Positions 8,665-32,930 of a stretch of DNA of 32,930 nucleotides are shown one piece after another. Numbering within the stretch: the stretch's first letter is position 1; every line of letters begins with the position of its first letter. The position numbers and the translations under genes are program-made. This DNA comes from Deltaproteobacteria bacterium (GTDB lineage Bacteria; Desulfobacterota; Desulfobacteria; Desulfobacterales; JAFDFH01), in the NCBI GenBank assembly GCA_019309945.1, contig JAFDFH010000004.1, positions 1 to 32,930 on the forward strand, read 5' to 3'. Under the pieces are notes generated by a model. The model made no database searches. It was given only the letters and a program-made list of their open reading frames with translations, and was not told the origin of the DNA.

Positions 8665-8679
8665 TTAGGTGTTACCTAA
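8665..8679. repeat. Short perfect inverted repeat (TTAGGT-GTT-ACCTAA)
   Basis: A 6-bp perfect dyad with a 3-base loop, whose last base is the first base of the left target duplication of family 1 copy 2. It could be a small operator or hairpin, or chance in an AT-rich gap. The remainder of 8342-8664 shows no gene and no repeat that I can recognise. Confidence 0.35.
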
Positions 8680-8686
8680 AACATAA

Positions 8687-8834: not shown

Positions 8835-8869
8835 AAACATAATGCGTCTATTCATGGCTTGACGTACAA

Positions 8870-8988: not shown

Positions 8989-10095
8989 GTGAAACCAGAT
9001 CGGATAGATATTCTTCCCCTGCGACAGCTTAAGTTTGGCTTCGACCAGCAGGACAAACAGCACGCAGCAGAGGTGCTCGCCCGTATTGACGGGTACATCG
9101 CCAACGCGCAAAAGGTTGTCGTGTCTGATTTGATGGTTGATTTTGGTTGCGGATCGAAGAATTGGTCTAAAGAAAGGATAAGTATGCTACTATCCGAGTT
9201 AATCCATGACGATAAAATCGAGTTTGAGTTTGAAAATATTAAAATCGGAAAAAAAGAGGCCCTGCGGTTGCTCTTGAAACCCTCACAATGTGAAGCGGTC
9301 GGTATTGTCCATGCCCAGATTGTTGCGGATGAGGATCTTATAGCCGCCCGAAAACTGGTGAAATTACTTTTAGGGACCGAGGCTCCTCCAAAGCAGAATG
9401 AACTTTGCCGCATTCTGCGCAAGCACCTGAATGGCTGGAAAAACGATCTGGAGAAATTTAAACGATTGGCGGATACGGGTAAATTTCCGGGAAACAGCAC
9501 CATCGATGCTGTCCGGAAGCCCACAGAAAGGCTCTTAGCCCTCCACGAACCGTATCGGTTTATTGATGCGATAAACCGTGAGCGCCAGCAACTCCTGAAT
9601 GTTAGCAAAATCTTCATCGTGTTAAAAGAATTTTACACAGTCAGGATTCATGTCTGGTACGCGCTTGTTGAGGCTTTGGATGCTTTCAGATCCAATTTGT
9701 CAATACTGCAGAAAGACCCCCGGTCGGAAACAGCTCTGCAGGAACTTTGCAGGATCTTTCACGCCGATGAACCTTTTGGCCTTCTGGATAACGTCTTTGA
9801 GCTTATCGCCACGGTTAAAACAGTCAACGACGAGATTGTACTGGAGCAGACGACCGCTGCCAGGGATGCCGCCCATGAGAAAATTGAAAAAATGATCCAG
9901 TGCGTCAGGTGTGCCTTAGATAACACGAACGCCCAAAGAGAGCTGCGCAATCGAGCACTTTATCCTTTACAGGGAATAAAAAAGGGCCTGGGCAGGGCAA
10001 ACAGTTTGACATCGATTGAAGATCTTCTCAACCATGCCCAGGACAAGCTTGATTTATCCCTGGATCACATTGATGAGATCACTTCTGTTCGATAG
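8989..10095 (+). CDS. Probable C-terminal remnant of a BrxC/DUF6079-type P-loop protein
   Basis: The 368-aa product contains no Walker A or B motif. From about residue 165 its helical pattern (DAVRKPTERLLALHEPYRFI, later VWYALVEAL, AVNDE-like TVNDEIV, and a terminal LRNRALYPLQGIKK) resembles, from memory, the tail of the roughly 1,200-aa BREX protein BrxC and related DUF6079 proteins. If so, more than two thirds of the N-terminus, including the ATPase, is missing. The start is a GTG at 8989 with a stop in frame at 8977. No other BREX gene (brxA, brxB, pglX, pglZ, brxL) is in the window. An unbroken frame of this length with a good promoter upstream means it could still be expressed. The identification is from family resemblance only. 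Confidence 0.5.
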   Translation: MKPDRIDILPLRQLKFGFDQQDKQHAAEVLARIDGYIANAQKVVVSDLMVDFGCGSKNWSKERISMLLSELIHDDKIEFEFENIKIGKKEALRLLLKPSQCEAVGIVHAQIVADEDLIAARKLVKLLLGTEAPPKQNELCRILRKHLNGWKNDLEKFKRLADTGKFPGNSTIDAVRKPTERLLALHEPYRFIDAINRERQQLLNVSKIFIVLKEFYTVRIHVWYALVEALDAFRSNLSILQKDPRSETALQELCRIFHADEPFGLLDNVFELIATVKTVNDEIVLEQTTAARDAAHEKIEKMIQCVRCALDNTNAQRELRNRALYPLQGIKKGLGRANSLTSIEDLLNHAQDKLDLSLDHIDEITSVR

Positions 10096-32270: not shown

Positions 32271-32451
32271 GTTAATAAAAAATGTCCTTCACCCATCATC
32301 AGAATAACATGATAACATTCCAAGCCGATTATAGTGATGAGAATTTATGGAAGTCAAAGTAAATTTTTCGAATAAAATATCAGTCAGTGGAACAACGGAC
32401 ATCCATCTGCCATCTCGTATCTGTCGAAGGGTTTAGCGGGTAAAACGATTA

Positions 32452-32721
32452 GTAACTTCTCAATATATTCCGGTAGGCCTGCTACGCCATCCGGTCATTT
32501 TTTTCAATACAGCCAAAACTTGCCGTTAAGGGCGCCTAACAGTGACCCGCGCACGGGATCTAAAATGAGTGTGTCGCTTGGCACAAACAGGCTACAATCA
32601 ACAATTGATGCTGTTCGGGTCACTGTAAGCCGCCCTAAACGGCTTCAAACAGTTGCCCGCTTTGAAAAAAATGACCGGATGACTCCGCTGGTAGTTTAAC
32701 CATAAGTTTTTGAGAAGCTAC
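32452..32721 (+). mobile_element. Foldback MITE-like element, family 1 copy 3 (270 bp)
   Basis: The ends GTAACTTCTCA (32452-32462) and TGAGAAGCTAC (32711-32721) form an 11-bp inverted repeat with one mismatch. Perfect 8-bp direct repeats AACGATTA flank it exactly (32444-32451 and 32722-32729). Inside, ATCCGGTCATTTTTTTCAA (32489-32507) pairs perfectly with 32662-32680, and 32522-32549 pairs with 32616-32643 with three mismatches, so nearly the whole element folds back on itself. There is no coding capacity. The rest of 32271-32930 shows no gene or other repeat that I can identify. Confidence 0.92.
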
Positions 32722-32930
32722 AACGATTATTTGAAACCATTTGAAATTATATCAAATATCTTTTAATAGATGACTCACATCTTGACATCGGCACTTTTTT
32801 CCCCATATCATTATAAGTAACCGTTCACGGAACGTTGAAATTAGAAAATAGAAATTGGGAATTTGGCCTTCATGCTTTTGTACTGTTGATGAACGCATTC
32901 AATTGGGGGCCCAGTTTTTCAACTATTGCT

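Follow-up and report, generated by a model that had tools for sequence, protein, structure and literature searches.

A high-copy foldback MITE family with IS66-type ends in a Desulfobacterales genome and a candidate transposase clade in its relatives

Positions 32452–32721 of the window (the whole 32,930-nucleotide stretch analysed) are a non-coding foldback MITE, inserted with an exact 8-bp target-site duplication. It is one of a family of roughly 180 copies in this genome, which was very probably moved in trans by an IS66-family transposase belonging to a single-ORF clade with GTAACTTCTCAA[A/T]AA ends. Members of this clade were found in related genomes, some of them alongside MITEs with the same ends.

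The element and its family

The copy that drew attention to the family lies near the right edge of the window and has the following parts:

32444–32451, no strand: left target-site duplication, AACGATTA
32452–32721, + strand: MITE copy of 270 bp, the family consensus being 271 bp; the ...CAATATGTTCCGG end lies to the left
32452–32463, + strand: left terminal inverted repeat, GTAACTTCTCAA
32488–32516, + strand: left outer internal inverted arm, pairing with 32653–32681
32522–32549, + strand: left inner internal inverted arm, pairing with 32616–32643
32616–32643, - strand: right inner internal inverted arm
32653–32681, - strand: right outer internal inverted arm
32710–32721, - strand: right terminal inverted repeat, reading inward GTAGCTTCTCAA, one mismatch (family consensus GTAACTTCTCAA)
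32722–32729, no strand: right target-site duplication, AACGATTA

The word AACGATTA occurs only twice in the whole window, at the two edges of the element, where the first-pass annotation had placed it. The same annotation called the element intact, with 11-bp terminal inverted repeats beginning GTAA; the 270-bp length, the duplication and the left end bear this out, but the right end begins GTAG, and the two ends differ at one of 12 positions. The long inverted arms that it described inside the element are two nested pairs, 86% (outer) and 89% (inner) complementary, and in single-stranded form the folding energy is -61.5 kcal/mol, compared with -33.0 ± 3.8 for shuffled sequences (z -7.5, none of 200 shuffles being as good). 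Neither an ORF of at least 80 aa nor an Rfam match was found over the element, which differs from the family consensus by nine substitutions and one deletion. A chance origin of this repeat structure can be rejected because near-identical copies exist genome-wide.

To describe the family we used the 3.6-Mb assembly to which the window belongs as contig C30 (557 contigs, 95% complete by marker genes). Exact GTARCTTCTCAA ends occur 255 times (127 + 128), compared with 4 (3 + 1) for the reversed control, and a core 26-mer with up to three mismatches occurs at 179 places (87 + 92, partial copies included), compared with none for its control. We put the copy number at roughly 180; were all 179 core matches full length, the family would make up about 1.3% of the assembly. 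The 40 copies that were scored, nearly all of them full length, are 93–96% identical to the copy in the window. The family consensus is 271 bp long with perfect 12-bp terminal repeats, and copies mostly lie 2–5% from it, none of the aligned ones being identical to it. Several contigs terminate inside a MITE copy, which helps account for the fragmentation of the assembly.

Boundaries and duplications recur across the genome. Both flanks were readable for 29 full-length copies, and of these 12 have an exact 8/8 duplication and another seven match at 7/8 (19/29 altogether), where about 0.0005 per copy would be expected by chance; the remaining 10 show no clear duplication. The first-pass annotation had proposed other copies in the genome as a check on its boundaries, and these copies agree with it in both ends and duplication length; together with the empty sites described below they also sustain its view that the element arrived by transposition. 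The family is therefore MITE-like in each of these respects, being short, non-coding, bounded by terminal inverted repeats, present in many near-identical copies in one genome and flanked by a duplication of fixed length (8 bp). Two copies without a duplication of their own, C5:4475–4745 (L018) and C425:1269–1540 (L019), have AAAAGTGG in common, as left flank in one and right flank in the other, as expected from recombination between MITEs or from an assembly join through the repeat.

Outside this genome the family was not seen. No copies were present in 57 genomes of the same order, and when 85,000 species genomes were scanned for exact matches to an 18-mer of the MITE end, 17 scattered hits came up, which we took as chance.

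The window itself holds two further copies. The first-pass annotation had correctly picked out the copy at 32444–32729 and overlooked these:

84–353, + strand: second MITE copy, 270 bp, 93% identical to the consensus, with decayed ends (ATAACTTCTCAA) and no duplication
8679–8686, no strand: left target-site duplication of the third copy, AAACATAA
8687–8834, + strand: third MITE copy, 148 bp, consensus positions 1–143 plus the last few right-end bases (GTTAC)
8835–8842, no strand: right target-site duplication of the third copy, AAACATAA

The third copy is internally deleted, yet its exact 8-bp duplication has been kept. About 150 bp beyond it starts an ORF (8989–10095) with a BREX BrxC alpha-helical domain (PF25792, 66 bits).

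Insertion sites, short forms and the hairpin

Sites without the MITE could be recognised within the same genome, as paralogous repeats rather than orthologous loci. When the flanks of C441:7593–7863 are joined by one 8-mer, they align without a break across the junction to a MITE-free repeat on C70 (88%) and on C546 (91%), and C70 and C248 show each other's insertion site empty, the insertions being of 271 bp and 77 bp. A single target word was thus present before insertion, and the MITE entered pre-existing sequence. Targets are mainly A+T-rich. One dispersed repeat of the genome, containing TTTTAGGCATTTTAGGCATTTGTAGC, was used as a MITE target (L041:570–775, L186:2222–2571); a further dispersed repeat (TTTTTGTTCGAGATCAAGGCCTGCGAAAAATTTTACC) is common to C210 and C352 (L070 near 1514, L103:770–890).

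Some elements carry the family ends and lack the hairpin altogether, at lengths of 77, 76, 74, 62 and 61 bp. Duplications of 8 bp (7/8 or 8/8) flank two of the 77-bp forms, one of 74 bp and one of 62 bp, and an 81-bp element combines the end motif and an exact duplication with a different interior. Since hairpin-less forms of 62 and 77 bp carry 8-bp duplications, the long internal hairpin is probably dispensable for movement, and little beyond the termini seems to be needed for transposition. At the junction of the 77-bp form (GCGCCATCCG/CTGGTAG) the sequence fits a deletion at short TCCG repeats as well as an insertion. We favour deletion over the entry of a hairpin of about 190 bp into a 77-bp MITE because the 61-, 62- and 74-bp forms have other endpoints.

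Nor did we see selection maintaining the fold among 39 full-length copies. Paired positions change at a rate of 3.6%, at least as fast as unpaired ones (2.8%), and of the 247 pairs that have changed 179 are broken, so the fold is not visibly maintained.

A single-ORF IS66 clade with the same ends

The first-pass annotation stated that the window holds no transposase, and a Pfam scan of its 20 ORFs found none. In the assembly as a whole, no match to the IS66 transposase domain (PF03050) was found. Three ends in this genome whose likeness to the IS ends described below extends beyond the 12-mer proved to be an ordinary MITE copy, a MITE copy with a second MITE nested in it, and C401, which starts as a MITE left end; none has a transposase match beside it.

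Across this genome and 57 relatives of the same order, PF03050 matches are present in 25 of the 58. One of these relatives, G001, carries at locus L093 an IS of 1689 bp; its ends are GTAACTTCTCAAAAA, and an exact duplication, CTTTTTCA, lies on both sides. Its one ORF of 100 aa or more encodes a transposase of 526 aa, which scores 62.3 bits against PF03050 (cut-off 23.1) and 110 bits against the NCBIfam IS66 model NF033517, below the cut-off of 180. The IS thus has the GTAA ends and 8-bp duplication of IS66 and lacks the accessory genes tnpA and tnpB of the classical multi-gene elements. It belongs to a divergent single-ORF branch of IS66, and fits the ISBst12-type group and not classical IS66. 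In the MITE-bearing assembly no homologue of the 526-aa protein was found, the best match (C352, E 0.139) being, by eye, unrelated sequence.

Among 390 genomes searched, 44 hold relatives. Within the order, the IS of this clade are about 1.7–1.9 kb long and encode a PF03050 protein of about 526 aa between GTAACTTCTCAA[A/T]AA ends. Eight loci in eight genomes (L104–L107, L113, L116–L118) have ends GTAAC[T/A]T[C/T]TCAA[A/T]AA and exact 8/8 duplications; a ninth (L110) has like ends and an exact 8/8 duplication, and its transposase contains one stop. A tree of 39 proteins places the ten rows with GTAACTTCTCAA-type ends on one branch (SH-aLRT 100), next to a sister clade whose ends are GTATCCTATTCA; support here is SH-aLRT only, and the deeper branches are long and uncertain. 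D218, N450 and E454 are conserved in every one of the 23 IS66 proteins aligned, and D343 is shared by the whole clade, as would be expected of a DDE enzyme. Over the terminal 24 bp, the left end of the MITE is nearest to the IS of G057 (22 matches) and its right end to several IS with 20 matches; 22 is the best agreement with the MITE among all IS found, and the exact parent was not among them.

Two genomes that hold an IS of this clade, G182 and G057, also have foldback MITEs of their own with the same ends. These measure 208 and 197 bp in G182 and 167 and 169 bp in G057, most have exact 8-bp duplications, and beyond the terminal 25 bp or so they show no similarity to the family in the window. 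The reversed control 12-mer occurs only 0–4 times per strand and genome. Two of the G182 copies, L154 (C13) and L156 (C235), have the same duplication, GTCATTCC, and the G057 MITEs (L158, L159, L161) contain palindromes of the GTCATTCCCGC/GCGGGAATGAC type; the IS clade or its MITEs may favour this palindromic repeat or have absorbed it.

Further MITE types occur in the genome of the window as well. A second foldback family, 172 bp long with ends GTAACTACTCA, gives about 40 matches, and most of the copies examined (including L177–L191) have 8-bp duplications. One of them, C386:7415–7586 (L175:1328–1499), is nested in a first-family MITE, with ACCATAAG and ACCATAAT at its sides. A 268-bp element at C100:877–1144 (L038) has GTAACTTCTCAA ends, a 7/8 duplication (AAAATCTG/AAAATTTG) and an unrelated interior, and is a third MITE type on the same ends.

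Mobilisation in trans and comparison with known systems

The first-pass annotation offered an IS66-like transposase acting in trans as its best guess, to be checked by a search for a full-length IS with the same ends. Such IS, with PF03050 transposases and 8-bp duplications, exist in relatives and were not found in the MITE-bearing assembly. A MITE usually has its autonomous partner in the same genome, although this is not obligatory; here the same-end partner was found only in relatives. We infer the clade as mover because it shares both ends and duplication length with the MITE, whose own assembly holds no such transposase. The transposase would bind the MITE ends and mobilise the non-autonomous element in trans, each insertion would duplicate 8 bp of a mainly A+T-rich target, and the hairpin would then decay neutrally. 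The putative source is an IS that has been lost or is unassembled or unbinned.

IS66 is not alone in making 8-bp duplications, which are also produced by families of the IS256, IS6, ISL3 and IS1595 types. With no IS66 gene in the assembly, a transposase of one of these might be the mover and the likeness of GTAACTTCTCAA to the IS66 clade a coincidence. We consider this most improbable, given that the identity of the ends runs over 12–15 bp and is to one transposase clade and not to its sister, which is very unlikely by chance; moreover, the duplication length is equal in the MITE and the IS66 clade, and the IS-bearing genomes G182 and G057 hold same-end MITEs while the reversed control 12-mer is rare. 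Equally improbable is a domesticated structured repeat, i.e. a REP/ERIC-like regulatory element or RNA hairpin kept for its function. The strong single-strand fold and the high copy number would suit it, but the element has no Rfam match, its paired positions change at least as much as the unpaired ones with most changed pairs broken, and hairpin-less short forms carry 8-bp duplications.

A version of the preferred explanation, mobilisation by the IS66 clade, deserves more weight: the amplifying IS66 element may since have been lost from the lineage, leaving MITEs that are now immobile. The missing transposase, the 2–5% divergence of copies of which no aligned one equals the consensus, and the lost duplications or internal deletions of some copies all agree with such a relic. 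Against it, the divergence is low, and with several contigs ending inside a MITE the IS may be missing from the assembly only; multi-copy IS are commonly lost where short-read assemblies break at repeats. We regard the relic as a real possibility, though the lesser one. Likewise less likely than not is a genome truly devoid of any IS66 transposase in which the two families, of about 180 and about 40 MITE copies, nevertheless persist with their IS66-type ends: the transposase would have been transient (e.g. on a plasmid or phage) or lost, and the 62–77-bp forms would have moved on little more than their ends.

Among the closest known systems is ISDge4, an experimentally active single-ORF IS66 of the ISBst12 group; its ends read GTAACTGCTCAGCA/GTGACTACTCAGCA and its repeat is 8 bp long (PMC12898284). 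It shares GTAAC-type ends (GTAACTGCTCAGCA compared with GTAACTTCTCAA) and the 8-bp duplication with the MITE family, and a single transposase ORF with a PF03050 domain with the partner clade; its ends are also resembled by the GTAACTACTCA ends of the second family (PMC12898284). It is unlike the MITE in the window, which is 270 bp long and codes for nothing, and its transposase has 449 aa as against 526 aa in the partner clade, which falls below the NCBIfam IS66 cut-off.

MITECca01 of Cardinium cOegib, with 169 copies (PMC9769881), is likewise a high-copy bacterial MITE whose movement is attributed to an IS acting in trans; its parent is an IS982-family element present in the genome, whereas our family would have an IS66-like parent, which the assembly lacks. 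The Chunjie MITE of Geobacter uraniireducens (178–235 bp; PMC10969869) is similar, compared by description only, in its size range, its tens of full and partial copies, its terminal repeats and its duplications. The review that describes it draws no link between Chunjie and IS66 and does not mention IS66 in its account of prokaryotic MITEs (PMC10969869). No IS66-linked MITE was identified in the literature searched (mostly open-access papers), and such MITEs appear to be little described. High-copy bacterial MITEs as such are already known, and we rate the family in the window as a new one of that kind. The transposition of IS66 elements still needs fuller characterisation, according to PMC12898284, and an abundant MITE with a defined transposase clade, 62–77-bp derivatives and parallel MITEs in relatives offers a ready test of what IS66 requires of its ends.
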